A stretch of DNA of 64,000 bases from Sphingobium yanoikuyae (lineage in GTDB: Bacteria > Pseudomonadota > Alphaproteobacteria > Sphingomonadales > Sphingomonadaceae). Shown here in pieces: positions 15,851-63,880 of this stretch (positions are counted from its first letter, which is position 1; every line of letters begins with the position of its first letter). The DNA is taken from the NCBI RefSeq assembly GCF_013001025.1, contig NZ_CP053021.1, forward strand, positions 2,497,501 through 2,561,500, written 5' to 3'. The position numbers and the translations under genes are program-made. The notes beneath the pieces were generated by a model. The model was not told the origin of the DNA and searched no databases. It saw only the letters and a list, made by a program, of their open reading frames with translations.

Positions 15851-15851
15851 G

Positions 15852-16940: not shown

Positions 16941-16961
16941 GGGGTCATTCCTTCCCGAAGT

Positions 16962-20450: not shown

Positions 20451-20489
20451 CCGTCATGCTGGTGAAGTCGCCTTCATCCAACACCAATT

Positions 20490-20622: not shown

Positions 20623-20710
20623 ATTTTGATTGATATATTGCCATGGATCATAAGCACAGGCCCGTGCCCGGCATCGGATCGGCCCCCTTTCACCATCAGA
20701 AGGATATGCC

Positions 20711-21547: not shown

Positions 21548-21565
21548 CCCCCGGTCACCCAGACC

Positions 21566-22510: not shown

Positions 22511-22514
22511 GGGC

Positions 22515-23690: not shown

Positions 23691-23694
23691 GATA

Positions 23695-24669: not shown

Positions 24670-24670
24670 C

Positions 24671-48567: not shown

Positions 48568-48591
48568 TCAAATGACGCCATAGTCATTTGA
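48568..48591. promoter_or_regulatory. 24-bp perfect inverted repeat ahead of the second sulfur operon
   Basis: TCAAATGAC (48568-48576) and GTCATTTGA (48583-48591) are exact reverse complements separated by GCCATA, inside an unusually AT-rich 173-base intergenic region. The 9-base arm recurs at 58432-58440. A dimeric repressor/activator site controlling 48653-55825 is the likely meaning. Confidence 0.65.
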
Positions 48592-48652
48592 TACATATCA
48601 CGGGACTTATCTAAAAAACATCACCAGCCACGTTTGCCAACGAGAGCGGTGA

Positions 48653-49498
48653 ATGACGATAATATCGCAAAGTCACGCGGACGAATTCTCGCATCCAGCG
48701 CTACGGCGTCCCCGCATCCATGACGTTCCCCGCGATGGCGATGCGCCACGGCTGCATGCGGAAGCGGCCCGGCGCACAGTTCGGGACGAGCGGCTGCACC
48801 GCAAGCAGCAACTGGCCGCGTCGCTGCGCCTGCTGGCCCAGCATGGCGTCGAGCCTGGCCTGGCCGGCCATCTGAGCGCCCGCGACCCTGAACATGTGGA
48901 CCATTTCTGGGTCAATCCGGTCGGCGTCCCCTTTTCCCATATCCGGGTATCGGACCTGCTGCGGATCGACAGCGACGGGCGGGTCGTCGAGGGCGACGGG
49001 CCAGTCAACATCTCCGGCATCCCCTATCATCATGCGGTCCAGCGTGCCCGGCCGGACGTCGTCGGGATCGTCCATGCCCATAGTTTCCACGCCAAGACCT
49101 GGTCCGCCTTCCGGCAACCGGTCGAGCCGATCATCGCCGACCTCGCCGCCTTCCATGAGGATCAGGTGGTCTTCGTGCCCGACCGGTCGTTGGATGCCGC
49201 TACGGGGCGTGATGCCGTCGCGCAGCAGTTCGTCCAGTCACTGGGTGACCGCAACATCCTGCTCTGGGCCAATCATGGCCACTGGACCGTCGGCAACAGC
49301 GTCGAAAGCGCGGCATGGCGCTTCATTGCCTATGAAAGCGCGGCCCGCGTGCAACTGACCGCACGGGCCGCCGGAACAGCGATCGTCGATCCGCCGACCC
49401 AGCGTCCCTCTCCCGACCAGCGGGAAGGATGGGCTTGGCTCAGCTTCCTGCCCTATTGGGACGAGATCGTCCGCGCGCAGCCCGATCTGCTCGACTGA
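48653..49498 (+). CDS. Class II aldolase/adducin family protein
   Basis: A 281-residue class II aldolase-fold protein: LAASLRLLAQHGVEPGLAGHLSAR, FWVNPVGVPFSHIRVSDLLRID, the metal-binding DVVGIVHAHSFHAKTWSAF and LLWANHGHWTVGNSVESAAW. An N-terminal extension of about 45 residues is charged and variable. It is only distantly similar to the aldolase at 14088 but occupies an equivalent genomic role beside a sulfonate-type binding protein. Substrate unknown; retro-aldol cleavage or decarboxylation of a hydroxylated sulfur-derived carbon skeleton is a guess. First gene of the operon; its stop shares a base with the next start. Confidence 0.83.
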   Translation: MTIISQSHADEFSHPALRRPRIHDVPRDGDAPRLHAEAARRTVRDERLHRKQQLAASLRLLAQHGVEPGLAGHLSARDPEHVDHFWVNPVGVPFSHIRVSDLLRIDSDGRVVEGDGPVNISGIPYHHAVQRARPDVVGIVHAHSFHAKTWSAFRQPVEPIIADLAAFHEDQVVFVPDRSLDAATGRDAVAQQFVQSLGDRNILLWANHGHWTVGNSVESAAWRFIAYESAARVQLTARAAGTAIVDPPTQRPSPDQREGWAWLSFLPYWDEIVRAQPDLLD

Positions 49499-50460
49499 TG
49501 CCCCGTCAGCTTTATTCCCGGCGGGCGCTGCTAGCCGGCGCCGGCGCCCTGACGCTGGCCGGATGCGGCGCGGCCACGGAACGGGCATTGTCCGACGTGA
49601 CCCTGAGCGTCTGGCGCTACAAGACGACGGCCGGCAATTTCATGGCGGCGGCAGGACAGGCCGACACGCCATACCAGGTCCGCTATGTCGACCTGCCCGG
49701 CGGCCCGCTGGTGCTCAATGCCTATGCCGCCGGTGCGCTCGACTATGCCTATATGAGCGAAATTCCACCGGCTTTCGCGCTGCAGTCGGGCACGCCGCTC
49801 AGGCTGATCGCCACCCACCAGGGCGATGTGAACAATAGCGGCGTGCTGGTGGTGAAGGGATCAAGCGCACGGCAATTTCCCGACCTTCGCGGACGCACCA
49901 TCGCCTACACGCCCAACACCAACAATCATTATTATCTGCTCAAACTGCTCGAAGCGCATGATCTGCGCCTGTCCGACGTGCAGGCCGTCGGCCTGCCCGC
50001 CAACGACGCCAATGCCGCTTTCACGCGTGGTCATGTCGAAGCGATCGTCACCGGCGGCATTTCCGCCCTGTTGACCGAAAGCCTGCTCGGCGGACGCTGG
50101 ATCGTCCGATCGGTCGCCGGTCTCTATTCGGGCAATTTCTGCATCTCTGCCCATCCGACCGCGCTGGCCGATCCGCTCAAGCGAGCGGCGATCCGCGACT
50201 ATCTGCGCCGGGAACAGGCGACCTGGCAATGGATCGACCGAAACCCGGAACGCTGGGCGGCGCTGTCGGCAACGCTCAGTAGCCAGCCCGCCGCCCTGTT
50301 CCAGCGCCTGGCCCGCGAGGCAAGCCGGCCTGCCCTGATCGTCCCGCCCGCCAAGGCCGCCATCGCAAGCCTGCAGCATGTCGCCGACGATCTCGCCCGC
50401 TTCGCGCTGGTGCGGGATCGCCACGACCTGTCCGCGCTGTGGGAACCGGACCTGATCTGA
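49498..50460 (+). CDS. Sulfonate-type substrate-binding lipoprotein
   Basis: A 320-residue lipoprotein with MPRQLYSRRALLAGAGALTLAGC (twin arginines and lipobox LAGC). Core motifs are LDYAYMSEIPPAFALQSGTPLRLIATHQGDVNNSGVLVVKGSS, LRGRTIAYTPNTNNHYYLLKLLEAH and LYSGNFCISAHPTALADPLKRAAIRDYLRR. The MSEIPP and GDVNN elements are shared with the lipoprotein at 23695, so they are paralogues. There is no permease or ATPase in this operon; SsuC/SsuB at 18.8-20.5 kb is the only candidate in the window. TGATG overlap with the aldolase. Confidence 0.83.
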   Translation: MPRQLYSRRALLAGAGALTLAGCGAATERALSDVTLSVWRYKTTAGNFMAAAGQADTPYQVRYVDLPGGPLVLNAYAAGALDYAYMSEIPPAFALQSGTPLRLIATHQGDVNNSGVLVVKGSSARQFPDLRGRTIAYTPNTNNHYYLLKLLEAHDLRLSDVQAVGLPANDANAAFTRGHVEAIVTGGISALLTESLLGGRWIVRSVAGLYSGNFCISAHPTALADPLKRAAIRDYLRREQATWQWIDRNPERWAALSATLSSQPAALFQRLAREASRPALIVPPAKAAIASLQHVADDLARFALVRDRHDLSALWEPDLI

Positions 50461-50501
50461 TCGGGCCGACCGTCACGAACATCTTAAAAAAGGGGGAATT
50501 T

Positions 50502-53000
50502 ATGCGACATGAGATCAGCCGGCCGGCCTTTGGCGTCCTGCGCCGGCTATGGCTTTCGACGGTTACCCTGGCCGCGCTCGGGGTCGGTCCGTCGGCGCTT
50601 GCGCAGGAACAACCTGTCCCAGCCCCAACCGAAGCCAAGGTCGAGGGGACGATCGTCGTCGTCGGCAACCGCAGCCGCGCGACCACCGCGCTGGAAAGCC
50701 CCGTGCCGATCAATGTGATCGACGACAGCCAGTTGACGACATTGGGAGCAAACAGTTCGCTGCGCGACGCACTGGGCGTGTTGCTGCCTAGTTTCAACTC
50801 GCTGACCGTCAGTTCCTCGTCCTGGAACAGCGTAGCGCGTCCAGCCGGCTTGCGCGGCCTGGGCGGGTCGCATGTGCTGGTGCTGGTGAATGGCAAGCGG
50901 CGCCACAATAGCTCGCTGCTCAACCTGTCGACCGGTAGCGTCGACCAGGGCGCCAATTCGGTCGATATCGACCTGATCCCGGCGGCAGCGATCAAGCGGA
51001 TCGAGGTGCTGCGCGACGGCGCGGCCGCCCAATATGGATCGGACGCGATCGCCGGCGTCATCAACATCGTGCTCAAGGATGACGACCATGGCGGCACGCT
51101 GACGGTGAACGGCGGCAAGCGCTACAGCTACCGCGGCAATTCCGACGGGCGTAATATCGAGGCAGGCGGCAATATCGGTTTCAAGCTGGGGCCGGACGGG
51201 TTCGTCAACATTGCCGCCAGCGCCAAGGACAATAATCATGCCCGCCGCGCCATTCCCGCGACCGGCGCCTTCTATTATCCGCTGGCCAATGGGCAGCCCG
51301 ACCCGCGCGAGAGCCGGGACAAGACGGTGTTTACCGGCGGCCTGCCCGACCTGCGCGCGCTGACGATCCTCTATAATGCAGAACTGCCGCTTTCGCCGGC
51401 CGCAACCCTCTATTCCTCCTCGACCTGGTCGACGCGATCCGCGATCATCGGGCAGAATTTCCGGCGCCCCAATTCCACCAATGCGGTGCTGTCCATCTAT
51501 CCCGATGGCTATGCGCCCAACTACACGCTGGACGAGAATGATTTCCAGATCCTCGCCGGCATCAAGGGCGAAGCGGGGGGCTGGAGCTGGGATCTGTCCA
51601 GCACCTATGGCGAGAACCGGTCGAAGAATGGCTCTACGGAGAGCCTCAACGCCTCCTTGGGCGATGCAAGTCCAACCGAATTCTGGACCTTCACTGCGAA
51701 ATTCGCCCAGTGGACCAACAATCTGGATATTTCCAAGGGGGTGGATATCGGTCTGGCCGAACCGCTGAAAATCTCCTTCGGTGCCGAACATCGCTATGAG
51801 CGGTTCCAGACCATCGCCGGCGACCCGGCAGCCTATGCCAACGGCCTTTATCAATATCCCGCCGGTACGCCGCTGGCCGGCCGCTATGCCACCATCGGCG
51901 CGCAGGGGGCGATCGTCCTCACCCCCGACGATGCGGCCAAGCTCAGCCGCAACAGCTATGCCGCCTATGTCGATCTGGGCGTCAATCCGGTGCCGCGCTG
52001 GTTCATCGGCCTGGCTGGCCGGGCCGAACATTATGACGACAGCGCCGGCAACACGCTGAACGCAAAGTTCACCACCCGCTACGACTTCACCGACAATTTC
52101 GCCATTCGCGGCACGATCAGCAACGGCTTCCGCGCGCCCTCGCTGGCCCAGTCCGCCTTCGCCCAGACGTCGAACCAATATACCACCGTCAACGGCGTCC
52201 AGACCTTCATCACCGCAAAGTCGGTGCGGCCGGGCACGCCGATCGGCGACGCGCTGGGCGCCAAAGCGCTGACCCCGGAAAAATCCTTCAACCTCAGCGC
52301 CGGCTTCAGCTACAAGATCGGCACCCGGTTCAACCTGTCGGTCGACGCCTATCAGATCAAGCTGGACGATCGCATCGCCCAGACCGGCTATCTGACCGGC
52401 GCCGGCGTCAGCGCCATCCTGGTCGCCAACGGCTTCGATCCCAATTATTCGGTGCGCTATTTCGCCAATGCGATCGACACCCGGACCCGCGGCGTCGAAG
52501 CCGTCGCCAACTATCTCCAGCCACTGGGCGAGGACAAGTCGATCCGCTTCACCATCGGCTATAATTACAACAAGACCAAGATCACCCATGTCTCCGACAA
52601 TCCGCCGGAACTGGCCGCGCTCAACCTCACCTTGTTCGACCGTCAGGCGCAGGGCTATATCGCCGGCAACTTGCCCAAGTCGAAACTGATCCTGGGCCAG
52701 GATCTGAAGCTCGGCACTCTCCAGCTCAACCTGCGCGAGACCCGCTATGCCAAGGTCGCCTTCCTCGGCACGACGGCCGCGACCGACCAGTTCTACGGCG
52801 CCAAATGGATCGCCGACATCGACCTGTCCTTCCAGGCGACGCGCAACATCAATGTCGCGATCGGCGCGAACAATTTCTTCGACACCTATCCCGACAAGAA
52901 CATACTGGCGGATACCAACGGCTTCCCGCCCTATCCGGCCCAGTCCCCGTTCGGCTTCTATGGCGGCTATTATTATGGCCGCCTGGCCTTCAGCTTCTGA
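50502..53000 (+). CDS. TonB-dependent receptor of the second sulfur module
   Basis: An 832-residue receptor starting at ATG 50502 after AAGGGGGAATTT. The signal peptide ends about SALAQE; the plug has GTIVVVGNRSRATTALESPVPINVIDDSQL, GLRGLGGSHVLVLVNGKRRHNSSLLNL and LIPAAAIKRIEVLRDGAAAQYGSDAIAGVINIVLK. The V-L-V-N-G-K-R-R-H motif marks the large receptor group with a long periplasm-facing VNGKRRH loop. The barrel ends YGRLAFSF. It is followed after 13 bases by a flavin monooxygenase, as at 9688-13286, and probably imports that enzyme's substrate or a precursor. Confidence 0.92.
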   Translation: MRHEISRPAFGVLRRLWLSTVTLAALGVGPSALAQEQPVPAPTEAKVEGTIVVVGNRSRATTALESPVPINVIDDSQLTTLGANSSLRDALGVLLPSFNSLTVSSSSWNSVARPAGLRGLGGSHVLVLVNGKRRHNSSLLNLSTGSVDQGANSVDIDLIPAAAIKRIEVLRDGAAAQYGSDAIAGVINIVLKDDDHGGTLTVNGGKRYSYRGNSDGRNIEAGGNIGFKLGPDGFVNIAASAKDNNHARRAIPATGAFYYPLANGQPDPRESRDKTVFTGGLPDLRALTILYNAELPLSPAATLYSSSTWSTRSAIIGQNFRRPNSTNAVLSIYPDGYAPNYTLDENDFQILAGIKGEAGGWSWDLSSTYGENRSKNGSTESLNASLGDASPTEFWTFTAKFAQWTNNLDISKGVDIGLAEPLKISFGAEHRYERFQTIAGDPAAYANGLYQYPAGTPLAGRYATIGAQGAIVLTPDDAAKLSRNSYAAYVDLGVNPVPRWFIGLAGRAEHYDDSAGNTLNAKFTTRYDFTDNFAIRGTISNGFRAPSLAQSAFAQTSNQYTTVNGVQTFITAKSVRPGTPIGDALGAKALTPEKSFNLSAGFSYKIGTRFNLSVDAYQIKLDDRIAQTGYLTGAGVSAILVANGFDPNYSVRYFANAIDTRTRGVEAVANYLQPLGEDKSIRFTIGYNYNKTKITHVSDNPPELAALNLTLFDRQAQGYIAGNLPKSKLILGQDLKLGTLQLNLRETRYAKVAFLGTTAATDQFYGAKWIADIDLSFQATRNINVAIGANNFFDTYPDKNILADTNGFPPYPAQSPFGFYGGYYYGRLAFSF

Positions 53001-53013
53001 TGGAGACGCAGGC

Positions 53014-54378
53014 ATGACCCACCCCTCCGGCACGCTCAAGCTCGGCGCTTTCCTGTCGGGGCACGGCTCGCACAATGCGAGCTGGCGCCTGCCGGAGGCG
53101 GATGTCGATGCCTCGCGCAGCTTCGCGCCCTATGCCCGGGTCGCCCGGAAACTGGAACAGGGCCTGTTCGACGCGATCTTCCTCAACGACAGCGTCGCCA
53201 TTCCCGATCTCGACGCCGATTCACTGGCGCGCACGTCGCAGGGCATGCGCTGGGATCCGTTGACGCTGCTGCCCGCCCTGGCTGTTGTCACCAGCCGGAT
53301 CGGCCTCATCAGCACGGCCAACACCACCTATAACGAACCCTATACGCTCGCCCGCCGGCTCGCCTCGCTCGACCATCTGAGCGCAGGGCGCGCCGGCTGG
53401 AACCTGGTCACCTCGCTCGGCGGTGGCGAGAATTTCAACCGCGAGGATCATGTCCTGCACGCCCAGCGCTATCAGCGGGCCGAGGAGTTTTTCGATGTCA
53501 TCACCGGCCTGTGGGACAGTTGGGAAGATGACGCCTTCGTCCAGGACAAGCAGAGCGGCATCTGGGCCGATCCCGCCAAGCTTCACCGGCTGGATCACAA
53601 GGGCGCGCATTTTTCGGTGCAGGGACCGCTCAACGCGGCGCGCCCGGTCCAGGGCTATCCCGTGATCGCCCAGGCCGGATCATCCGATGACGGCCGCGAA
53701 CTGGCGGCGCGGACGGCGGAAATCATCTTCACCGCCGCCCAGACGATCGACGAGGCGCTGGCCTTCGGCGCGGACATCACCGCCCGCCTCGGCCGTTATG
53801 GCCGCAAGCGCAGCGACGTCCGCATCCTGCCCGGCATATCGGTCTATGTCGGCCAGGATGCCGAGGAAGCCCGCGCCCGCTACGAAGCGCTTCAGGATCT
53901 GCTCGATCCGGTTTTCGCGCTCAAGGGCATATCCCGCTTCGTCAATATCGGCATCGACCTGTGGACTCTGCCGCTGGACGAACCGGTCGTACTGCCCGCC
54001 GCAATCCCCGTCACCAACACGCACAAGAGCCGCCAGCAACTGGTGATCGACCTGATCCGCCGCGAACAGCCGACGGTGCGGCAATTGCTGCGCAAGATGG
54101 TCGCCGGCGGGCATCGCATCCTGTTCGGCAGTGCGCGCGACATTGCCGATGATTTTGAGCATTGGCTCCATGCCGGCGCGGCCGACGGGTTCAACATCAT
54201 GTTCCCCGACCTGCATGGATCGGTCGACCGTTTCGTTGAGGAGGTTGTCCCCGAACTGCAGCGGCGCGGTGTGTTCCGCACCGCCTATGAGGGCGCCACG
54301 CTGCGCGACAATCTGGGCCTCGATCGCCCGGACAACCGCTTCACCCGTCCCCCGCCAGTGGCGGCTGTCAGGAACTGA
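53014..54378 (+). CDS. NtaA/DszA-type FMNH2-dependent monooxygenase
   Basis: A 454-residue group C flavin monooxygenase: LKLGAFLSGHGSHNASWRLPEAD, IFLNDSVAIPDL, DHLSAGRAGWNLVTSLGGGENFNRE, GLWDSWEDDAFVQDKQSG, GYPVIAQAGSSDDGRELAARTAE, and the end EEVVPELQRRGVFRTAYEGATLRDNLGLDRPDNRF. It is paralogous to the enzyme at 11949 and to the decayed copy at 57807. It would oxidatively cleave a C-S (or C-N) bond, with reduced FMN from elsewhere. ATG 53014 lies 13 bases past the receptor stop, with GGAGACGC upstream; an earlier in-frame extension is inside the receptor gene. Confidence 0.9.
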   Translation: MTHPSGTLKLGAFLSGHGSHNASWRLPEADVDASRSFAPYARVARKLEQGLFDAIFLNDSVAIPDLDADSLARTSQGMRWDPLTLLPALAVVTSRIGLISTANTTYNEPYTLARRLASLDHLSAGRAGWNLVTSLGGGENFNREDHVLHAQRYQRAEEFFDVITGLWDSWEDDAFVQDKQSGIWADPAKLHRLDHKGAHFSVQGPLNAARPVQGYPVIAQAGSSDDGRELAARTAEIIFTAAQTIDEALAFGADITARLGRYGRKRSDVRILPGISVYVGQDAEEARARYEALQDLLDPVFALKGISRFVNIGIDLWTLPLDEPVVLPAAIPVTNTHKSRQQLVIDLIRREQPTVRQLLRKMVAGGHRILFGSARDIADDFEHWLHAGAADGFNIMFPDLHGSVDRFVEEVVPELQRRGVFRTAYEGATLRDNLGLDRPDNRFTRPPPVAAVRN

Positions 54379-54419
54379 GCGGCGCTTCATTCCCAAAATC
54401 TTAGAACAAGGAACCGGAC

Positions 54420-55100
54420 ATGTCCCAGCCCCATGACCCAATCGATCAACATTGGGCCGATCTTCTCTCGCCCGGCCGAAGGCAATTGCTGCGCGCAGGC
54501 GGACTGGCTGCTGCCGGTGGCCTTATCGGCGCGCCTGCCTTTGCCGCCGCTCTTCCGTCCTCTCCCGCCGCCATCGCCGCCCATACGGGCAAGAGCCCCT
54601 GGGGCTATGCCACCGCCACGGAACCGACGCCCCGTCCCCTGGCGGTGCGCCCCGGCGAGGAGCATGGTCTGCCCGATCGGCCCCGCGCCTATACCGATAT
54701 CAAGAGCTATCATGCCCATATCTATTTCGACGAGGATAGTTACGAGAAGGCAGTCCGCATCCGGCAATGGACGGCGGAACGCTTTGCGGTGGAGTTGGGC
54801 AACTGGAATGCGAAGCCGCGCGGCCCGCATGTCACGCCATCCTTCTATTTCGGCTTCGGCACCGACCTGCAGCCGCTGATCCTGCCCTGGCTCCAGCTCA
54901 ACAGCCTGGGCCTGACCATCCTTGTCCATCCCAATACCGACGATCCGCGCGCCGACCACCTCCATTATGCCCTGTGGGTGAACCGGTCGCAGCCGGTCAA
55001 CGCCTATGGCATGAAGAAGCCGGACCTTGCGGCTGGCGAGCCGGCCGTGGAACAAATCTATCCCAATACCCGGCCGACGGTCGCGATCGAGCGTAGCTGA
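54420..55100 (+). CDS. DOPA 4,5-dioxygenase family protein with Tat-type signal
   Basis: The C-terminal 135 residues match the DOPA 4,5-dioxygenase family: YTDIKSYHAHIYFDEDSYEKAVRIR (H98, H100), RGPHVTPSFYFGFG (H137), LGLTILVHPNT (H170) and DHLHYALWVN (H180, H182). The family opens catechol rings extradiol-wise, using iron. Unusually, residues 1-45 form a twin-arginine signal with GRRQLLRAGG (R20, R21) and cleavage near APAFA, so the protein is predicted periplasmic; normal bacterial members are about 110-120 residues and cytosolic. It lies 41 bases after the monooxygenase and overlaps the SDR gene by one base. Confidence 0.82.
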   Translation: MSQPHDPIDQHWADLLSPGRRQLLRAGGLAAAGGLIGAPAFAAALPSSPAAIAAHTGKSPWGYATATEPTPRPLAVRPGEEHGLPDRPRAYTDIKSYHAHIYFDEDSYEKAVRIRQWTAERFAVELGNWNAKPRGPHVTPSFYFGFGTDLQPLILPWLQLNSLGLTILVHPNTDDPRADHLHYALWVNRSQPVNAYGMKKPDLAAGEPAVEQIYPNTRPTVAIERS

Positions 55101-55825
55101 TGGGCGCTGCGAGGGAACAAGCGGGCCGGCATTATGCCATCGTCGGCGGCAGCAGCGGCATCGGCCTTGCCGTGGCGAAATTGCTGGTCGCGCGCGGCGA
55201 CAGAGTGCTGATCGGCGGGCGATCGCCCGACCGATTGTCCAGCGCCATCGCGACATTGGGGGAGCAGGCCTTCGCCCGCTCCATCGACACCGGCGATCGC
55301 GCATCGATCGCGGCCTTCTTCAACGATGTGCCGGCGCTCGACGGACTATTCACCCCGGCCGCCAGCTATCGCACCGGGGCCTTTCGTGACGGCGATGTTG
55401 ACACAAGCGAAGCGCTGTTCGACGCCAAATTCTGGGGGCAATATTGGACCGTCCACGCCGCCCTTCCGATGTTGAAACAGACAGCATCGATCCTGCTGAT
55501 GTCGGGTGCGGCCTCGGTCCGACCGATCGGCGCGCCGGCCTATGCCGCCTGCAATGCAGCGCTGGAGGGATTGGCGCGCGGCCTGGCGTTCGAATTGTCC
55601 CCGATCCGGGTCAATTGCCTGTCTCCCGGCACCACCGACAGCGACCTGTGGCGGGGTCGCCCCGCGCCGCAGCGTGAGACCGCCTACGCCCATTGGAACG
55701 GACTTTGCCTGACCGGACGCCCCGCCCAAGTCGAGGAACAGGCGCAGGCGGCCCTGTTCCTGCTCGACAATGGCAATATGACCGGCGCCACCTTGTTCTG
55801 CGATGGCGGCTATAGTTTCCGCTAG
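55100..55825 (+). CDS. SDR-family protein lacking the catalytic lysine
   Basis: The 241-residue Rossmann protein has the cofactor motif VGGSSGIGLAVAKLL (15-29), a following RSPDRL that could favour NADPH, and the C-terminal SPGTTDSDLW, TGATLFCDGGYSF. The active site reads S135, then Y148-AAC-N152: serine and tyrosine are present at the usual spacing of 13, but the lysine four residues after tyrosine is asparagine (codon AAT at 55553). Either activity is lost or altered, or chemistry relies on another residue. It is the last gene of the operon and converges with the ferredoxin gene with a four-base overlap. Confidence 0.85.
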   Translation: MGAAREQAGRHYAIVGGSSGIGLAVAKLLVARGDRVLIGGRSPDRLSSAIATLGEQAFARSIDTGDRASIAAFFNDVPALDGLFTPAASYRTGAFRDGDVDTSEALFDAKFWGQYWTVHAALPMLKQTASILLMSGAASVRPIGAPAYAACNAALEGLARGLAFELSPIRVNCLSPGTTDSDLWRGRPAPQRETAYAHWNGLCLTGRPAQVEEQAQAALFLLDNGNMTGATLFCDGGYSFR

Positions 55826-56214
55826 GCAATGTCCGTGTCCGCCCATCGCGCGGCATAACGGCGGGCGGCGATCTCCGCCCCTTCGCGCAACAAGGGGCCG
55901 AGTTGCCAGAAGTCCTGTAGATGCGGTGCCTCTGGCGGTGCATCGCGATCCCAGCCATAATCATGGCGCAGCCGCCCGACTTGCCCCATGGCCAGCGCCT
56001 CAACGGCGGACAGGCTTGGCGCGCCCTCCTGCTCGGGCGCGACATAGAGGGCGTCGGCCGGGCAATAGAGTTCGCACATGAAACAGGTCTGGCACTGATC
56101 CAGCCGTGCGATCAGCGGCACGCCATCGGTTCCGGCGTCGAAGACATGGGTGGGACAGGCCACAACGCAGGCCTGGCAACCGGTGCAGCGCTCCTCGAAT
56201 ATCTGTGCGATCAT
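55822..56214 (-). CDS. Two-[4Fe-4S] ferredoxin-domain protein
   Basis: A 130-residue protein with two cluster motifs: C10-TG-C13-QA-C16-VVA-C20-P and C41-QT-C44-FM-C47-ELY-C51-P, followed by an 80-residue tail containing PEQEGAPSLSAVEAL and LRHDYGWDRDAPPE. This is the layout of AprB-like/ferredoxin subunits that pair with a flavoprotein. ATG 56214 overlaps the flavoprotein stop by four bases. It likely passes electrons to or from that flavoprotein. A longer frame to 56385 overlaps the flavoprotein and is rejected. Confidence 0.87.
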   Translation of the reverse strand: MIAQIFEERCTGCQACVVACPTHVFDAGTDGVPLIARLDQCQTCFMCELYCPADALYVAPEQEGAPSLSAVEALAMGQVGRLRHDYGWDRDAPPEAPHLQDFWQLGPLLREGAEIAARRYAARWADTDIA

Positions 56215-57806
56215 GCGGCGATCTCCTGCGCTGCGGGCCGTTCCGGACGGGTCCAGACGTGATCCAGCCCTGCGACCAGCAGCCGGCTCTGCTGCGCCGG
56301 ATCGGTCCCCGGCCGATCGATGCGCATATGCATGCCGCGACTTTCGTCGCGCGCCAGGGCCGCTGCCACGATCCAGCCCGCACACGCCGCCATTGCCGCA
56401 TGTTCGCGCAAGGCCACCGCCGCCAGCCCCTCCGCACGGCCATGATCCGCGATCGTGCGCCAGACGGCCTCGACCGCGTCCCGGTGCCGCTCAAGCTTGC
56501 CCGCACTGCGCCAGAGCGCTGCATCATAGCCGATGGTCGCGGCCTGGATGATCGGCAGCCCCTCACGAACGTCGGGAAGCCGTGCGGTGGAAGCGGGCCG
56601 CAGGCCGACCGTGCCGGCCGCCAGCACCGGCGTATCGCCTCGTCGTCCGGTCCGACGTGCATGGGCCGCCGCAGCGGCGCCGGCGATCCGGCCGGAGGTC
56701 AGCGCCCAGGCGGCATTTTGCGCGCCGCCGCCGCTAGTGGCGCCGGCGACCAGTTCGCGCGTGGCGCTGTCACCCGCCGCATAGAGATTGGCGACGCTGG
56801 TCTCGCAGCCGTCGCCGACGATCTGCACCCCGCCGGTGCCGCGGACCGTGCCTTCGCCGAATAGTCGCACCGGGAAGCGATCGCGGAACAGATCGATCCG
56901 CTTGTGCTCGAACGGCGCGAGCGAGGCGGGCTGGATGCGGCGCAGGCCTTGTTTCAGAGCGTCCGGCGCGTCGGACAGGTCGGCCAGTACCGGTCCAGCC
57001 TCCAGCGCGCGGGCCAGGGCACGCAGATGCGCCGCCTCCCCGCTCATCGGTGGCGGCACATCCAGTTCGCGGCCTTCGGTATCGAAGAAGCGGGCTGCGA
57101 AATAGGGCAGCGTCCGGGTCGAATTCCAGGCCGGCGAGAGGGAATAGGATACGGAAAATTCCATGCCCGACAGCACAGCGCCGACTTCCGCCGCCATCAG
57201 CAATCCATCGCCGCTATTGCCATGGCTGCCGATCAGCCCGGATCGGAAGGCGCAGCCGCCGGTCGCAATCACGACCGCACCCGCGCGCACTGTCCAGGCC
57301 TGTTGCTTCAGCCGCGCATAGCCGGCCGCCCCCGCCACCGATCCATCGGCATGCAGCAGCAGTTCCAGTGCGGGATGATGATCCAATATGGTGACACCGG
57401 CATACTGCGCAAAGCGACGCAGGGCACGCATATATTCCGGCCCGCGCACGCCGGAGTAGAAAGTGCCGCCCTTGCCGTCGCCGGCAAAAGGATAATAGCC
57501 CGCCAGCTGCGGCAGGGCACGCCAGGTTTCATCGATGATACGCGCCATCCAGTCCCGTTCGGCCAGGCCAAAGCTGCGGGCGTAACGCTCCTCGATCGCG
57601 GCCTCGCGCCGTCCCGGTTCCGGCGCGACCCACCAATGATTGGGACCACCGGTCGCCGTGACGCCGCTCGTCCCGACAAAGCCCTTGTCCACCAGCAGCA
57701 CGTCGGCGCCCGCCTGTGCCGCCATGATCGCTGCCCAGCAGGCCGCCATGCCGCCGCCGATGATCAGGACATCGGCGCTGCGCGTGATCGGCGCGGCTTC
57801 GCTCAT
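56211..57806 (-). CDS. AprA/fumarate-reductase-like FAD flavoprotein
   Basis: A 531-residue FAD protein of the succinate dehydrogenase/fumarate reductase/APS reductase superfamily: FAD-binding SADVLIIGGGMAACWAAIMAAQAGADVLLVDKG, the TSGVTATGGPNHWWV loop, GAVVIATGGCAFRSG, LFGEGTVRGTGGVQIVG and the second FAD stretch NLYAAGDSATRELVAGATSGGGAQNAAWALTSGRIAG. There is no signal peptide. With the ferredoxin it forms an AprAB-like couple seen beside sulfonate genes in proteobacteria; true APS reductase function is unlikely in this aerobic context and the substrate is unknown. It starts immediately after the pseudogene stop. Confidence 0.83.
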   Translation of the reverse strand: MSEAAPITRSADVLIIGGGMAACWAAIMAAQAGADVLLVDKGFVGTSGVTATGGPNHWWVAPEPGRREAAIEERYARSFGLAERDWMARIIDETWRALPQLAGYYPFAGDGKGGTFYSGVRGPEYMRALRRFAQYAGVTILDHHPALELLLHADGSVAGAAGYARLKQQAWTVRAGAVVIATGGCAFRSGLIGSHGNSGDGLLMAAEVGAVLSGMEFSVSYSLSPAWNSTRTLPYFAARFFDTEGRELDVPPPMSGEAAHLRALARALEAGPVLADLSDAPDALKQGLRRIQPASLAPFEHKRIDLFRDRFPVRLFGEGTVRGTGGVQIVGDGCETSVANLYAAGDSATRELVAGATSGGGAQNAAWALTSGRIAGAAAAAHARRTGRRGDTPVLAAGTVGLRPASTARLPDVREGLPIIQAATIGYDAALWRSAGKLERHRDAVEAVWRTIADHGRAEGLAAVALREHAAMAACAGWIVAAALARDESRGMHMRIDRPGTDPAQQSRLLVAGLDHVWTRPERPAAQEIAA

Positions 57807-58260
57807 TCAGCGGCAACAGCGGCAGGCGAAGCTACAATGGCGCTGTAGCGGTTTTCCGGCACCGGCAGGCCAAGATGGCCGCGCAGCGTGTCATGCGCTT
57901 ATTCGGTGCGGAACAGACCCCGCGCTTGCAGGATCGGCACCACCTCCTCACGGAAGCGGCGGAACGGTTCGGGCGAACCGGCGAATTGCGAGCGCCAATC
58001 ACCGAAGCGACCGACGGCCAGGCGCAGTGTCACACCCGCCTCCTGCGCTGTCTGGATGATCCGCTTGGCCTGCCCCATATAGCTGTGGTCGAGCGCTTCG
58101 CGACCAGCGTCTTCGATCGCGCGAGCCTTCTCGCTGTCGGCAATGGCTTCGGGTCGGCGAGGATATTGATAGGCTCGGGATCGAGCCAACTCGACTGGTT
58201 GCCACCCGCCCCCTCCAGGATCGCGCCCTGATGCAGTTGGCTGTGCGTTTCGTCGGCCAT
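57807..58260 (-). pseudogene. Decayed NtaA/DszA-type flavin monooxygenase
   Basis: ATG 58260, with GGGAGG upstream, opens MADETHSQLHQGAILEGAGG, the N-terminus of this monooxygenase family. After about 37 residues the match jumps, in a different frame, to the C-terminal region: YMGQAKRIIQTAQEAGVTLR, GRFGDWRSQFAGSPE, then EEVVPILQARGLFRTE. A TAA (57899-57901) interrupts the gene there, yet the conserved tail THE-like HDTLRGHLGLPVPENRYSAI continues in frame to TGA 57807-57809. So roughly two thirds of the usual 450 residues are deleted, one frameshift and one nonsense codon are present, and the original start and stop remain. It was the first gene before the flavoprotein. Confidence 0.85.
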
Positions 58261-58431
58261 CGTCGCCTCCCTTGAATGAGACGAGCGTAACCGTGCGGAC
58301 CCCACCGGCATAACGAGAGCTTCTCATAGGCTGTTGTGAAAGGCTGATGAACAGGTTGTTGCAGAAGAACGCAACGAAAAGGCCAAGTTCATTAGTTACG
58401 GATTACCTCCGAAAATGCTGCTCAAATGACG

Positions 58432-58643: not shown

Positions 58644-60884
58644 ATGCGCAGAATTTCCATCGCCACCGCCCTCATTCTGGCGGACACGTCCACCATCGCC
58701 CATGCACAGGCGGCGCCCGCGGAGGCGAACCGCGACGACATCATCATCGTCACCGCGACCGGTCAGTCGTCGGCCATTTCGACGACCAAGAGCGCCACGC
58801 CGATCATCGAGTCGCCGCAGTCGATCTCGATCATCAGCCGCGAGGAGATCAATCTGCGCGCCTCTCCGACGATCGCCGATGCGCTGGCCTATACGGCGGG
58901 CGTGCAGTCAGAAAGCTGGGGCGTGGACAGCCGCGTCGACGAAGTGTCGGTGCGCGGCTTTGGCGCAGGCGGCTTTTCGTCCAACAATAATTTCGTCGAC
59001 GGTCTGCGCCTGCCTTCGGGTGGACAATGGACGCGGCCGGGCTTCGATTCCTATGCTTTGGAACAGATCGAAGTGCTCAAGGGGCCTTCGGGCGCGCTTT
59101 ACGGCCAGACCGCGCCGGGCGGCCTGGTCAATATCGTCACCAAGCGGCCGACCGACGAATTCCAGGCCAATGTCATGTTGCAGGCGATAGGGACGACCGA
59201 CCTCGACAACTGGAACTATCAGGCGGCGGCCGATGTCAGCGGGCCAATTACTTCGACCCTGTCGAGCCGGATCGTCGGCCTGTCGCGCTATGGCGATACC
59301 CAGGTCGAGGATGTCTCGATCGGCCGCCGCTATATTTCGCCCAGCCTGACCTGGAAGCCGGACGATGCCACGACCTGGACGATCCTGGGCCAGTATCAGC
59401 AGGATAAGGGCGGTTCGACTTTCCAGTTCCTGCCGGCGCTCGGTGCACTCTATCCCAGCAACGGCAAATATATCGCCAATGACGACAATCTGGGCGAGCC
59501 GGACTGGAACACCTTTGACCGCAACCAATATCTGATCGGCTCCTTCTTCGAGCATAAGTTCAACGACGCGATCACGATCCGCAACAACAGCCGCTATACC
59601 CATCTCGACACGCTCTATCGCGTCGTCGTGCTGTCGGGGAACACGCTGACGACCTGCCCGTCGAGCATCGCGGGCTGCATTCCCGGCCAGACGATCAGTC
59701 GCCGTGCGGTGCAGGGCAAGGGCGAGAGCGACGGCCTGGCCACCGACACCCAGTTGGAGGCCAAGTTCACCACCGGTCCGGTGGAGCATACGCTGCTGGG
59801 TGGGGTCGATTATTTCCACACGGAGTGGGAGCATTATCGCGATCTCGTCAGTTCGTCGCTGGTGCTGCCAATCCTCGATATCTTCGATCCGGTGTCGCGC
59901 GGCTCGGCCGGCTATGCCAGCAACATGTCGCCGCAAATCTATACGGAGACCGTCAGCAAGCAGGCGGGTGTTTATCTCCAGGACCAGATCAAGCTGGGCA
60001 AGCTGCGGCTGACCTTGGGCGGCCGGCAGGACTGGGCAAAGGACAATACCTACAACCCCATCACCGGTAATCGCTACATCACCAAGAGCGATGCTTTCAC
60101 CTGGCGCGCCGGCACCGTCTATATGTTTGACAACGGTTTGGCACCCTATGCCAGCTATTCCGAAAGCTTCCAGCCGCAGGTCAGCGACCCCACGACCAAT
60201 CTGACGGCTGAGCCATTCAAGCCGACGACGGGCCAGCAATATGAAGCGGGCATCCGCTACCAGCATGGCGACAATATCTATGTGACGCTGGGCGCCTATC
60301 AGATCACCCAGCAGAATATGACCACGCCCGCGACCCTAGCGGACCTTCCCACAGGCAGCACTGCCGCCACGCTGGCCGCCAAGCCTTGTGCGCCCAGCTG
60401 TCAGGTGCAGACCGGCGAGGGACGGGTGCGCGGGCTTGAGTTCGAGAGCAAAGCGACCCTGCCCTGGGGCATGGCGGTGATCGCCACCGCGACCCGCATG
60501 GACAGCAAGGTCACCAAGTCGAACACGGCGGGCCAGGTCGGCAATGAACTGCCGCAGGTGCCCGAATGGATGGCGTCGCTATTCCTCAACCAGACGATCG
60601 AAGGCGGTTCGCTCGCCGGCCTCGGCTTCGGTGGCGGCGTGCGCTATACCGGCAAGAGCTATGGCGACACAGCCAATTCGCTCCGCATTCCCGACTATAC
60701 ATTGTTCGACCTGTTCATCCGCTATGATCTGGGCAAGGCGTCGGGTGCGCTGGAGGGCATGACCTTCTCGATCAACGGCCGCAACATCGCCGACAAGCGC
60801 TATGTCGCGACCTGCAGCGCGGTTTCTGCCTGCTATTATGGCCAGGGCCGCAGCCTCACCGCCCGCCTGCAGTTCAACTGGTGA
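58644..60884 (+). CDS. TonB-dependent siderophore receptor
   Basis: A 746-residue ferric-siderophore-type receptor. A signal peptide (MRRISIATALILADTSTIAHAQA) leads to a TonB box IIIVTATGQSS and plug motifs IIESPQSISIISREEINL, IADALAYTAGVQSES, VRGFGAGGFSSNNNFVDGLRL, YALEQIEVLKGPSGALYGQTAPGGLVNIVTKRPT. The barrel ends LTARLQFNW. GGGGATC sits before ATG 58644. Its stop overlaps the start of a periplasmic hydrolase (GTGA), the first gene of a tightly coupled iron-uptake operon parallel to that at 4715. Confidence 0.93.
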   Translation: MRRISIATALILADTSTIAHAQAAPAEANRDDIIIVTATGQSSAISTTKSATPIIESPQSISIISREEINLRASPTIADALAYTAGVQSESWGVDSRVDEVSVRGFGAGGFSSNNNFVDGLRLPSGGQWTRPGFDSYALEQIEVLKGPSGALYGQTAPGGLVNIVTKRPTDEFQANVMLQAIGTTDLDNWNYQAAADVSGPITSTLSSRIVGLSRYGDTQVEDVSIGRRYISPSLTWKPDDATTWTILGQYQQDKGGSTFQFLPALGALYPSNGKYIANDDNLGEPDWNTFDRNQYLIGSFFEHKFNDAITIRNNSRYTHLDTLYRVVVLSGNTLTTCPSSIAGCIPGQTISRRAVQGKGESDGLATDTQLEAKFTTGPVEHTLLGGVDYFHTEWEHYRDLVSSSLVLPILDIFDPVSRGSAGYASNMSPQIYTETVSKQAGVYLQDQIKLGKLRLTLGGRQDWAKDNTYNPITGNRYITKSDAFTWRAGTVYMFDNGLAPYASYSESFQPQVSDPTTNLTAEPFKPTTGQQYEAGIRYQHGDNIYVTLGAYQITQQNMTTPATLADLPTGSTAATLAAKPCAPSCQVQTGEGRVRGLEFESKATLPWGMAVIATATRMDSKVTKSNTAGQVGNELPQVPEWMASLFLNQTIEGGSLAGLGFGGGVRYTGKSYGDTANSLRIPDYTLFDLFIRYDLGKASGALEGMTFSINGRNIADKRYVATCSAVSACYYGQGRSLTARLQFNW

Positions 60885-61723
60885 GGCGGCTGTCGGCCCT
60901 TGCGGCGCTCGGCCTGCTGACGATGGCGCCGGGCGTGGCGTCATCGCCTGCGGTGACGGCGCCATGGCAGCTGGAACGATCCGACGTGCTGACCATCAGG
61001 TCGCCCGATGGCCATGCCTATCGGGTGCTGGTCGCCTGGCCGGAGGGCGAACCACCCGCCGGCGGCTGGCCGCTGCTGTGGATGCTGGATGGCGAGGATA
61101 ATTTTCCGATCGCCGCGACCACTGCCCGTCGGTTGGCGCGTGCTGGCGCCCGCTCGGGTATCGGGCCGGGGTTGATCGTCGCGATCGATTCCGGGCCGCT
61201 GGCCCGGCGGGTGTTCGATTATACGCCGGCAGCGCCGGACTATGCCATTCCCGCCGGGGCGCCGGCCAGTGGCCTGCCAACCGGCGGCGCCGACATTTTC
61301 CTGCGCTTCATCGAGCAGCAGGTCCGGCCCCAGATCGTGGCGCGCTGGAAGATCGACGCCAGCCGGCAGACGCTGATGGGCCACAGTTTCGGCGGGCTGC
61401 TGGCGCTGCACGCGCTGGCCAAGGGCGCGCCCTTCAGCCGTTATGTCGCGGTCAGTCCATCCTTCTGGTTCGGCAATGGCCTGGTCGCGCGGGAGGTCGA
61501 AGACATGGCGCCTGCGCCGGGCAAGAGGCTGCTGGCCGCCAGTGGCGACAGCGAGGGCGGTCCGACCAAGGGCGACAGCGAAGGTGACAGGGTAGCGGCC
61601 CTTTTCACGACCCATGGGGTCGAGGCGCAGTTCCGGCTGCTGTCGGGGCATAGTCATGGATCGACGATGATGGCGATGATGACGGACGGCATTGCCATGG
61701 CATTTGAAACGGAATCGAAATGA
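60881..61723 (+). CDS. Exported alpha/beta hydrolase (IroE-like siderophore esterase)
   Basis: A 280-residue serine hydrolase with signal peptide (cleavage near GVASS). The esterase D/IroE-like pattern includes WPLLWMLDGEDNF, GPGLIVAIDSGPLARRVFDYTPAAPDY, FIEQQVRPQIVARWKIDASRQTLMGHSFGGLLALHAL (nucleophile S169) and the histidine loop LLSGHSHGSTM (H257). Relatives such as IroE hydrolyse catecholate siderophore esters in the periplasm. Being translationally coupled to the receptor, it probably linearises or cleaves the imported siderophore to free its iron (inference). Confidence 0.85.
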   Translation: MRRLSALAALGLLTMAPGVASSPAVTAPWQLERSDVLTIRSPDGHAYRVLVAWPEGEPPAGGWPLLWMLDGEDNFPIAATTARRLARAGARSGIGPGLIVAIDSGPLARRVFDYTPAAPDYAIPAGAPASGLPTGGADIFLRFIEQQVRPQIVARWKIDASRQTLMGHSFGGLLALHALAKGAPFSRYVAVSPSFWFGNGLVAREVEDMAPAPGKRLLAASGDSEGGPTKGDSEGDRVAALFTTHGVEAQFRLLSGHSHGSTMMAMMTDGIAMAFETESK

Positions 61724-61995
61724 TTTTTGCGATCCTTGGCGGGCTGCTTGCCTGTCTGGCGGCGATGCTGCTCTATCTGGCGGCGCCGCACCAGCGGATG
61801 GGGCGGCTGCCCTGTCCGCCGCGCCTTGCCGGGTGGGGCGGCGTGGCACTGCTGATCGTCGGCACCGGCCTGTTGCTTCGCTGGGCCGGGGTGGCGACGG
61901 CGATCTTCATCGTCCTGACGCTGGTGATGACGATCTGGTCGGTAGTGCCCGTCACCATCGCCTGGCGCCGCGGCGCGCCAGAGGGCAAACGATGA
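61720..61995 (+). CDS. DUF3325 small membrane protein
   Basis: A 91-residue protein with helices at residues 1-20, about 40-56 and 59-80. The YLAAPHQRMG segment after helix one corresponds to MARHQQDW in the paralogue at 6280, and the C-terminus is basic (AWRRGAPEGKR). It is coupled on both sides by ATGA overlaps. Role unknown, tied to PepSY proteins by context. Confidence 0.75.
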   Translation: MIFAILGGLLACLAAMLLYLAAPHQRMGRLPCPPRLAGWGGVALLIVGTGLLLRWAGVATAIFIVLTLVMTIWSVVPVTIAWRRGAPEGKR

Positions 61996-62300
61996 GCAGG
62001 ATCGGATCGCGCCGGCCGCTGTCCAGTGGCGACTGGTTCGGCAAGGTATCGGCCGCCTTCATCCTGGGCTTCACGCTGGCGCTCGGCTGCGCCGGCCTGT
62101 TTCGCGAACTGATGGATGTGGGGGAAGGCTATTTCTCCACCAAGGGGCAGTTCGCCATGTGGCTGATGTCGCCGGTCTGGGCGCTTACGCTGAGTTTCTG
62201 CTTCCTCTTCCGTTCGGGCCTGCGCGCCTGGCTATGGCTCTTCGCCGCCAATCTGCTGGTCTGGGTGCCGGTGCTGCTGATGGGAGGGCTGCGGCCGTGA
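61992..62300 (+). CDS. Small three-helix membrane protein of the iron operon
   Basis: The 102-residue product has three hydrophobic helices (VSAAFILGFTLALGCAGLF, MWLMSPVWALTLSFCFLF, LWLFAANLLVWVPVLLM). It occupies the place held by the DUF3649 protein in the operon at 4715 but I cannot align the two with confidence. Start and stop both overlap neighbours by four bases. A longer upstream frame overlaps DUF3325 and is rejected. Confidence 0.7.
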   Translation: MSRIGSRRPLSSGDWFGKVSAAFILGFTLALGCAGLFRELMDVGEGYFSTKGQFAMWLMSPVWALTLSFCFLFRSGLRAWLWLFAANLLVWVPVLLMGGLRP

Positions 62301-63880
62301 AACTGCCGACCGACGTCGTGAAGATGTACAAGGAAGTGCATGGCTGGGTCGGCATCATTTCCGGCCTGTGCCTGTTCATCGCCTTCTATGCCGGGGCACT
62401 GACCATGTTCGAGTTGCCCTTGCAGCGCTGGGCCTCGCCCCCGCCGACGCTGGCGCCGCCCCCTTCGCTGGAGCGGACGCCGGAACTGGTCGCCAAGGTT
62501 CTGGCCACCCATCCGCAGGCGGCAAAGGGCTATGACATCAACCTCGTCATCGATGCTGCCCATCCGGCCCGAATGACATGGATGGTGCGTGGCGAAGCGG
62601 ACGAGCATGGCGGCGGCCAGCGTTATTATGCTTCGCTGGCGCCGGATGGCGCACTGCAGGTCGAAAGCCAGGGGCCGTCCGAGGTCGCGCAGTTGATCGA
62701 TGTGCTGCACCAGCAGGTCGGCCTGCCCTTCGACCATGAGATTTCCATGCCGATCATGGGCGCGATCGCGCTGCTCTACACCATCGCTCTGGTGTCGGGG
62801 CTGGTCGTGCTGCTGCCCAGCCTCGTCAGCGACCTGTTCGCGCTGCGCATCGGCAGGAATGTGAAGCGCATGTGGCTCGATGTCCACAATGTGCTGGGCC
62901 TGTTCAGCCTGCCCTTCCACATCATCATGGCGCTGACCGCAGTCGTCTTCGCCTTCCATGACCAATTCTACGGTGCGCAGGGGCTGGCCTTTGGTGGCGG
63001 CGCGGAGCGGGCGCGGCCAAGCCTGTCGGCCCCGGCCGAGGGACCGCCGCCCGCCACGCTGACGCCGGCGCAGATCGTCGCCCGCGTGCGCGAGCAGGCG
63101 CCCGGCTTCACGCCAGAGACATTAGTCTATGGTCAGGGACGTGGCGGCCTGCCGGCGCTGCGGGTGCAGGGCAGCGATGCCCGCTACGGCCTGCGCGCGC
63201 CGACCTATGGCATGGCCGGGATCGATCCGCAGACCGGTGCGATCACCGGCACCGACTATATGCCCGGCATGCAGGATGGCTGGTCGGCGACGATCACCAG
63301 CTTCTTTGCCCTGCATTTCGGCAATTTTGGCGGGAATACGATCCGCTGGGCCTATTTCCTGCTGGGGCTAGCCGGTGCCTTCCTCTTCTATACCGGCAAT
63401 CTCCTCTGGGTGGAATCGCGCCGCAAGAAGGAGCGCAAGGCGGGCGCGGTCGAACAGACGCGGGCGACACGCATCCTGGGCGCGCTGACTGTGGGCGTGC
63501 CGATGGGCAGCATCGCCGGCATTTCGGTGACGCTGGCGGCGGCCAAACTGCTGGGCAGCCATGCCAGCTATGGCATGCACAGCGTCATCTATTATGCCCT
63601 CTTCCTGATCGCGGCCGGCTGGGCGCTGGCGCGCGGAGCGGCGCGATCGGGCGTGGAATTGGCGATCCTGGGCGCGGTGGCGATGTTGTGCATCCCGGCC
63701 GCAAGCCTGATCGCGGGGACCGGCTGGTATGATGCGCCTGCACTGATGCTGGTGGATCTCACGGCAGTGCTGCTGGCAGTGCTGCTGTTCCTGTCGGCGC
63801 GGGCTGCGGCCCGTCGTGCGGCGGCCGGTCAGCGCGACAGCATCTGGTCGACGATCAGGCCGGTTGCCGACCCTGGTTGA
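62297..63880 (+). CDS. PepSY-associated transmembrane protein
   Basis: A 527-residue inner-membrane PepSY-TM protein starting at GTG 62297. The first helix VHGWVGIISGLCLFIAFYAGALTMF is followed by a periplasmic region, helices around MGAIALLYTIALVSGLVVLLPSL and LDVHNVLGLFSLPFHIIMALTAVVF, a second PepSY-like region (TPAQIVARVREQAPGFTPETLVYG), the LHFGNFGGNTIRWAYFLLGLAGAFLFYTGNLLWVESRRKKE helix and four C-terminal helices. Conserved histidines in VHGW, DVHNV and ALHFG suggest haem or metal binding, as in ferric-chelate reductase proposals for this family. Fewer than half of its residues appear to match the protein at 4715. Confidence 0.88.
   Translation: MKLPTDVVKMYKEVHGWVGIISGLCLFIAFYAGALTMFELPLQRWASPPPTLAPPPSLERTPELVAKVLATHPQAAKGYDINLVIDAAHPARMTWMVRGEADEHGGGQRYYASLAPDGALQVESQGPSEVAQLIDVLHQQVGLPFDHEISMPIMGAIALLYTIALVSGLVVLLPSLVSDLFALRIGRNVKRMWLDVHNVLGLFSLPFHIIMALTAVVFAFHDQFYGAQGLAFGGGAERARPSLSAPAEGPPPATLTPAQIVARVREQAPGFTPETLVYGQGRGGLPALRVQGSDARYGLRAPTYGMAGIDPQTGAITGTDYMPGMQDGWSATITSFFALHFGNFGGNTIRWAYFLLGLAGAFLFYTGNLLWVESRRKKERKAGAVEQTRATRILGALTVGVPMGSIAGISVTLAAAKLLGSHASYGMHSVIYYALFLIAAGWALARGAARSGVELAILGAVAMLCIPAASLIAGTGWYDAPALMLVDLTAVLLAVLLFLSARAAARRAAAGQRDSIWSTIRPVADPG

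Follow-up and report, generated by a model that had tools for sequence, protein, structure and literature searches.

A Tat-exported PF08883 dioxygenase in a two-module gene block of Sphingobium yanoikuyae with a probable role in organosulfur scavenging

Two kinds of described enzymes are among those closest to the genes considered here. The first are the monooxygenases that act in S-alkylcysteine salvage, among them Bacillus subtilis YtnJ, which we take to be CmoJ. CmoJ is reported to break the C–S bond of alkylcysteine sulfoxides (PMC10863075). The second belong to the PF08883 (DOPA 4,5-dioxygenase) family, one member of which, the Gluconacetobacter enzyme, is 46% identical to the solved protein 2NYH and opens the L-DOPA ring to yield betalamic acid (PMC6426604). 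Here we describe a locus of Sphingobium yanoikuyae in which relatives of both kinds stand side by side. It occupies positions 48,568 to 58,260 of a 64,000-nucleotide stretch (henceforth the window), which corresponds to positions 2497501–2561500 of a 5.2-Mb contig in a genome of 5.94 Mb. A role of this gene block in organosulfur scavenging is well supported, and we infer that the substrate is catecholic. Judging from the arrangement in relatives, the block is best described as a fusion of two modules, A (aldolase, substrate-binding protein (SBP), TonB receptor and the monooxygenase NtaA) and B (the PF08883 protein DODA, a second monooxygenase NtaA′, flavoprotein and ferredoxin).

All eight genes named in the initial annotation are present as open reading frames with profile matches. 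They had been taken to form one block; however, they fall into two convergent operons, six genes on the forward strand (48653–55825) and the flavoprotein and ferredoxin genes on the reverse strand (57806–55822), with the stop codons of the last forward gene and of the ferredoxin gene overlapping. The forward operon, assigned by profile matches throughout, encodes a class II aldolase/adducin family protein of the PRK06208 subfamily (aldII_2, 281 amino acids, 48653–49498; also PDB matches), an NMT1/SsuA-type substrate-binding lipoprotein (SBP_2, 320 amino acids, 49498–50460), a TonB-dependent outer-membrane receptor with plug and barrel (TonB_2, 833 amino acids, 50499–53000, with a possible GTG start at 50439), an NtaA/DmoA family monooxygenase dependent on flavin mononucleotide (FMN) (NtaA_2, 455 amino acids, 53011–54378; also PDB matches), the PF08883 protein with predicted export by twin-arginine translocation (Tat) (DODA, 226 amino acids, 54420–55100; also alignment) and a short-chain dehydrogenase (SDR, 241 amino acids, 55100–55825), the start of which overlaps the DODA stop. 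The junctions are, in order, an overlap, 38, 10 and 41 bp, and again an overlap. On the reverse strand, profile matches identify a 4Fe-4S dicluster ferredoxin-like protein of 130 amino acids (55822–56214) and a flavin adenine dinucleotide (FAD) flavoprotein (FAD_binding_2; 56211–57806) of the fumarate reductase/L-aspartate oxidase/AprA superfamily, the reading frames of which overlap. In front of them lies the remnant of another NtaA-family gene, NtaA′ (57807–58260, reverse strand), that retains its start and end, with the interior mostly gone; the gene is intact in S. scionense (L032, 16652–18010), in S. limneticum (L111) and on plasmid pKN1 of S. yanoikuyae (L145). L-numbers are labels of fetched DODA or module loci. 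In the window, DODA is placed in the module A operon and the module B monooxygenase is decayed. The block encodes no ATP-binding cassette (ABC) permease or ATPase. Its upstream neighbour, a pectin/rhamnogalacturonan I locus ending at 48479, lies outside.

The aldolase-fold protein belongs to PF00596 and exceeds the cut-off of the NCBIfam model PRK06208 (264.6 versus 255 bits); its best solved relatives are the decarboxylase NovR, which ranks first, an entry named fuculose-1-phosphate aldolase, and TqaM. The lipoprotein had been called sulfonate-type. It is of the NMT1/SsuA type and carries a lipobox-like LAGC motif, but the curated SsuA cut-off is missed; it looks SsuA-like, and we do not claim SsuA membership. 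NtaA_2 is a flavin monooxygenase, as proposed, with 526.3 bits against a cut-off of 279.7 for the NtaA/DmoA model TIGR03860. A specific role in S-alkylcysteine salvage, read off its match to YtnJ, was rejected because other relatives of NtaA_2 score nearly as high. Finally, the term AprA-like is right for the flavoprotein in a broad superfamily sense, but an identity as AprA was discarded: the protein reaches 38.3 bits with the adenylylsulfate-reductase alpha model (cut-off 557) and scores higher against the TfrA/fumarate-reductase, SdhA/FrdA succinate-dehydrogenase and L-aspartate-oxidase models. A PDB search with the flavoprotein yielded nothing above 40 bits.

The exported DOPA-dioxygenase-like protein is likewise what it had been announced to be. 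It attains 86.3 bits with PF08883 (cut-off 25) over profile positions 1–103 of 106, and is the only member of this family found in the genome. Its twin-arginine signal was recognised by eye and by conservation, so that export is predicted. R20 and R21 as well as His 98, 100, 137, 170 and 180 are invariant across 36 aligned DODA sequences; a script pattern for the twin arginines matched 66 of 79 sequences, and several of the 13 misses show RR by eye. The core resembles the solved proteins 2PEB (E 2e-23) and 2NYH (E 5e-15), with the His residues of which the five conserved His align, and DODA is probably an iron-type dioxygenase. The additional N- and C-terminal stretches are partly conserved within its own family. 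In a sample of 298 genomes of the taxonomic family (own included), 25 hold some DODA match. Full-length matches beyond the window are confined to one genome (G212, 68%); most of the remaining ones are limited to the core, and two are restricted to the N-terminal part.

Relatives were collected in one scan of an 84,980-species collection with two peptide patterns from two sequences, which returned at least 84 relatives, 80 of which were kept; the stretches fetched around DODA reach up to 10 kb per side and are shorter at contig ends. When co-conservation of the whole set was tested, the full set was found at only one of the 80 DODA loci, that of S. scionense (L032). Thus, a neighbourhood search across sphingomonads does not recover the whole set as a conserved unit, but it does recover two sub-modules that are conserved separately. 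The S. scionense locus is also the nearest among those fetched (97% for DODA, about 92% for the DNA of the block). Between the SDR and ferredoxin genes it carries 3.3 kb with genes for a thioredoxin-like protein, a serine O-acetyltransferase (169.2 bits with the EpsC model, cut-off 150) and a Cons_hypoth698 protein that shares 96% identity with a protein carrying the annotation 'putative sulfate exporter'. All three have counterparts on pKN1 (93–98% identity), where they are labelled thioredoxin, EpsC and putative sulfate exporter and adjoin an intact NtaA′–flavoprotein–ferredoxin set. At the corresponding place, the only one examined in this respect, none of these genes is present in the window, and the second monooxygenase gene is mostly missing.

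In S. limneticum the two modules are apart. One contig holds the aldolase–SBP–TonB–NtaA unit (L112, 76–87% identity) without DODA, and a different contig holds DODA, NtaA′, flavoprotein and ferredoxin on one strand (L111). A second congener shows the same split on contigs of 3.4 and 1.3 Mb (L208, L209), with module A at L209 and module B at L208; there, an M19 dipeptidase gene adjoins the aldolase–SBP–TonB–NtaA unit. Among 94 Sphingobium genomes, that of the window included, four have SBP_2, five have DODA and 12 have the flavoprotein, and each of the four SBP_2 genomes also holds DODA and the flavoprotein, unlinked in two of them. Fisher tests give p 1.6e-6 for SBP_2 with DODA and p 1.6e-4 for SBP_2 with the flavoprotein, values that are uncorrected for kinship and come from few genomes, namely four, two of which are probably the same assemblies as the S. 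scionense and S. limneticum loci.

Beyond the window, module B is a cassette of wide distribution, with DODA as its neighbour in a few sphingomonads. The flavoprotein matches 59 plasmid records, and five regions, from Pararhizobium gei, Rhizobium daejeonense, Sphingobium yanoikuyae, Sphingobium sp. TomTYG65 and Nostoc edaphicum, were examined. Each of the five has a luciferase-like monooxygenase (LLM) or a gene annotated 'monooxygenase' near the flavoprotein–ferredoxin pair, and two have ABC permease and ATPase genes immediately adjacent. Of 398 genomes of the phylum, counting that of the window, 11 have the flavoprotein. The wider flavoprotein loci of the ten other genomes contain ABC-permease matches in nine cases and NtaA, SsuD or SBP matches in six, and DODA at none of the ten.

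To judge the company that DODA keeps, 23 alphaproteobacterial DODA loci were compared with 57 other DODA loci and with 40 control stretches of 20 kb, taken at systematic positions in eight DODA-carrying genomes and unmatched in gene content. Since some queries came from the loci themselves, we used counts with own-locus queries left out and counts with queries from the window only. Window-only sulfur queries match 9 of the 23 alphaproteobacterial loci, 1 of the 57 others and none of the controls (p 3.5e-5). Several of the 23 are close kin; after thinning, the ratio is 7/15 versus 0/40 (p 3.2e-5). Any sulfur gene, own-locus queries left out, is present at 13/23, 1/57 and 2/40 loci, respectively (p 7.6e-6), with 11 of 15 in Sphingomonadales and 2 of 8 in Caulobacterales. 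This broader set takes in weak matches (in L092, 27% for LLM and 35% for PALP). Dropping the ACAD query, which had been translated in a shifted frame with nine stops, does not alter the counts. The ten loci without a match are L033, L055, L056, L066, L082, L097, L102, L107, L108 and L109, of which L055 is a miss solely because its own queries were left out. The sole non-alphaproteobacterial match (L080) is on a contig binned as Eremiobacteraeota that is possibly misbinned or transferred. In L080, DODA occurs with ATP-grasp-cluster and LLM-cluster genes, types that are also near DODA in Sphingomonas (L069).

Several of these sulfur genes are direct neighbours of DODA. NtaA_2 (L032), NtaA′ (L111), an EpsC gene (L058; 165.3 bits versus 150) and, in Caulobacter (L098), SBP_1 and M19 genes directly adjoin it on the same strand, and a cysteine synthase A gene lies directly by it in L063 and L068 (S. 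kyeonggiensis; L063: 368.3 versus 350.95). In L055, L070, L071 and L081, its direct same-strand neighbours are TauE upstream and MetN, MetI and MetQ-like genes downstream (in L071 by match position); there, MetN and MetQ fall short of the cut-offs of their models, and MetI does so by a narrow margin. An M19 dipeptidase gene lies close to DODA at 8 of the 23 loci from alphaproteobacteria (6 once own-locus queries are dropped) and at none of the 57 others or the 40 controls. M19 membrane dipeptidase genes were seen near DODA or the module A/B cores in L055, L066, L070, L071, L082, L092, L097, L098, L145 and L209, and one solved M19 relative is the gliotoxin dipeptidase GliJ. Taken together, the organosulfur role proposed in the initial annotation is supported by the EpsC, sulfate-exporter-like and thioredoxin-like genes within the S. 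scionense block, and by the association of DODA with sulfur genes among the 23 alphaproteobacterial loci. Sulfur-assimilation genes thus occur in orthologous blocks, and NtaA′–flavoprotein–ferredoxin sets stand by DODA in L111 and L208. These settings hint at a sulfur-recovery step.

In a quick maximum-likelihood tree of DODA, 35 of 84 inner branches have low support, and one sequence (L093) was left out as the script missed its HxH motif. Mapped onto this tree, the sulfur context, seen in the window and at 14 loci, requires at least six changes. Sphingomonad DODAs form three well-supported sets among beta- and gammaproteobacterial sequences, but with support of no more than 81–91 at the deeper forks. 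This topology is consistent with DODA having entered sulfur neighbourhoods horizontally several times, instead of through one inherited operon, without proving it. In Janthinobacterium, exported DODA lies directly behind a TonB receptor at 13 of 13 loci (e.g. L034, 6403–11986), in a conserved setting between a 4Fe-4S protein and a polyhydroxybutyrate-depolymerase-type gene and without sulfur-set matches. The idea of an ancient TonB–DODA unit was rejected by a two-way search, as other receptors score higher both ways.

From these data we propose a scheme in which module A would bring an organosulfur compound across the outer membrane and cleave its C–S bond in the cytoplasm with FMNH2 and O2, and module B, consisting of the exported DODA, the second NtaA-type monooxygenase, flavoprotein and ferredoxin, would contribute a periplasmic step and a redox pair. 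First, the TonB receptor would admit a catechol-bearing organosulfur compound, for example a cysteinyl- or glutathionyl-catechol (formed when quinones trap thiols) or a sulfonated or sulfated catechol. The Tat-exported, probably iron-type DODA would then open the ring in the periplasm, and the lipoprotein would hand the product to an ABC transporter, for which the nearest candidate in the window is the ATPase/permease pair at 18832–20450 in another sulfur cluster (module 1, see below). Thereafter, the monooxygenase would free sulfite or a thiol for cysteine synthesis, and the carbonyl or carbon product would pass to the aldolase-fold enzyme and the SDR. The substrate, the ring opening, the metal, the sequence of steps, the partner transporter and regulation by sulfur are all inferred. 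M19 dipeptidase and MetNIQ genes beside DODA at other loci point to a conjugate of an amino acid or peptide as substrate; the sulfatase neighbour in L063 and L068 favours a sulfate ester. As a whole, the combination of two-module fusion, periplasmic opening of a catechol ring and C–S cleavage is our best explanation, to be held tentatively and at somewhat less than even confidence. The more general idea is that assimilation of sulfur from organosulfur compounds with a catechol group begins in the periplasm with a Tat-exported extradiol dioxygenase, and that sphingomonads and Caulobacter wired this enzyme into sulfur assimilation several times independently; it is a doubtful one at present. Most soil sulfur is organic, and for sulfur bound to aromatic or polyphenolic matter we know of few routes back to cysteine. 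If true, the idea would place a desulfurisation step outside the cytoplasm, which is absent from current desulfurisation models, and would provide a first biological context for the exported branch of the PF08883 family.

A number of results weigh against this proposal. SBP_2 reaches only 83.4 bits with the SsuA model TIGR01728 (cut-off 163.5), and several solved relatives that differ in substrate are almost equally close to NtaA_2 (YtnJ/MoxC, 344 bits; 7e36, 323; 3sdo, 317; DszA, 262). An AlphaFold model of DODA built with 36 sequences is poor (mean pLDDT, the predicted local distance difference test, of 49) and lends no support. The sulfatase-family gene that follows in L063 and L068 fits sulfate esters better than C–S bonds, and the fifth DODA genome of the genus (L210) has a TonB receptor upstream of DODA and no sulfur-gene match. 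Outside the alphaproteobacteria, 56 of the 57 DODA loci are without a sulfur-set match; because only one has such a match, DODA is not inherently a sulfur enzyme. A MetN query alone matches 17 of these 57 loci. We read these matches as generic ABC ATPases, which this query also catches, and MetN was therefore kept out of the sulfur set.

In the main rival, DODA does not act on the sulfur substrate but clears catechols and quinones from the periplasm in a general way, and was recruited into sulfur-starvation operons because the desulfurisation of aromatic compounds sets catechols free or because quinones trap scarce thiols. Since the neighbours of DODA are so mixed (M19, MetNIQ, sulfatase), it may indeed serve catechol clean-up in sulfur starvation; NtaA, EpsC and CysK add to this variety, which has no fixed pathway. 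Moreover, DODA stands directly behind a same-strand thioredoxin-like gene in L069, L102 and L103. In Stenotrophomonas (L057), no gene on the strand of DODA lies closer to it than 250 bp, and 1.3 kb away is a Flavodoxin_2 gene, of a fold that includes quinone reductases. On the other hand, DODA is directly coupled to NtaA′–flavoprotein–ferredoxin in two congeners and, in the window, to NtaA_2, which points to a role in a pathway, and we regard clean-up as rather unlikely. An improbable reading is that chance alone brought a sulfur operon together, beside the pectin locus, with a dioxygenase that is unrelated to it and was gained by horizontal transfer, the two having no common function. The restriction of the full set to S. 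scionense, the repeated DODA transfer suggested by the tree and the decay of the module B monooxygenase would agree with it, but the co-occurrence of unlinked modules in congeners and the repeated enrichment of sulfur neighbours speak against it. Still less probable is that receptor and DODA handle a catecholate iron chelator with iron as the cue: TonB-receptor matches are enriched near DODA (17/23 alphaproteobacterial loci, 19/57 others, 4/40 controls) and directly upstream of it throughout Janthinobacterium, and the block is followed by another TonB receptor gene accompanied by esterase and PepSY genes, but the Janthinobacterium receptor is not the counterpart of TonB_2, other receptors scoring higher in both directions, and in sphingomonads DODA is flanked by sulfur genes.

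Other features of the window surround the block. Module 1 (9634–24717) is a separate, larger sulfur cluster that comprises a TonB receptor, an AhpC-like protein, a class II aldolase, SsuA-like SBPs, an NtaA monooxygenase close to YtnJ (530 bits), an SsuD-like monooxygenase, a rhodanese with three matched stretches, a cysteine-dioxygenase-like protein, the ABC pair, a LysR regulator, a 2-hydroxyacid dehydrogenase and an acyl-CoA-dehydrogenase-like protein; large parts of it recur in other genomes (L128, L129, L132, L191). The pectin/rhamnogalacturonan locus (28117–48479) contains TonB receptors, a major facilitator superfamily transporter, GH88, KduI, GH2, DUF6250 and PcRGLX. The TonB receptor, esterase and PepSY-TM genes next to the block (58644–63880) are possibly a siderophore-type iron uptake set. 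As a lead only, a CTATGAG site on the reverse strand (58323–58329) is upstream of the remnant–flavoprotein–ferredoxin operon, and the same motif precedes the NtaA′–flavoprotein–ferredoxin operon of pKN1. It occurs 12 times in the window (3.5 expected), with copies at 9572 and 20524 in gaps upstream of module 1 operons, the latter reading CTAT-N11-ATAG, a LysR-like dyad. As a regulator site it was rejected: only 3 of 12 copies are upstream of sulfur operons, none precedes module A, and the extended dyad is not above chance.

In the titles and abstract starts of open-licence PubMed Central literature, we found no article that links the PF08883 family with sulfur metabolism or describes this gene combination, in line with the earlier statement that no described pathway with this set was known to its author; a term search of PMC13352529 likewise gave nothing of relevance. 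Every protein family in the block is already known; in the literature searched, the link of an exported dioxygenase to sulfur assimilation appears to be undescribed. By their PDB matches, NtaA_2, NtaA_0 and NtaA′ are of the same kind as CmoJ/YtnJ of S-alkylcysteine salvage, DszA, DmoA and YxeK, but unlike clear YtnJ kin, NtaA_2 is not clearly nearest to YtnJ. With sulfonate clusters of the ssu/tau type, such as module 1, module A has the aldolase, SsuA-like SBP, TonB receptor and NtaA types in common, whereas it lacks the ABC permease/ATPase, SsuD-like, rhodanese and cysteine-dioxygenase-like genes and has DODA and the SDR instead. The sets of LLM monooxygenase, FAD flavoprotein and 4Fe-4S ferredoxin in Rhizobium, Pararhizobium, Nostoc and S. 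yanoikuyae pKN1 consist of the same gene types as module B, with flavoprotein identities of 46–95%, and two Sphingobium plasmids also match its gene order; in contrast to these sets, the monooxygenase of the window is broken and DODA lies in the facing operon. DODA itself shares the family, the SYHAH[IV]YFD block and the His pattern with GdDODA (the L-DOPA extradiol dioxygenase of Gluconacetobacter diazotrophicus), 2NYH/2P8I and 2PEB. The solved PF08883 relatives have 117–122 residues, to which the window protein adds a Tat signal, about 92 N-terminal and 31 C-terminal residues, and, unlike GdDODA, 2NYH and 2PEB, it stands among sulfur genes.

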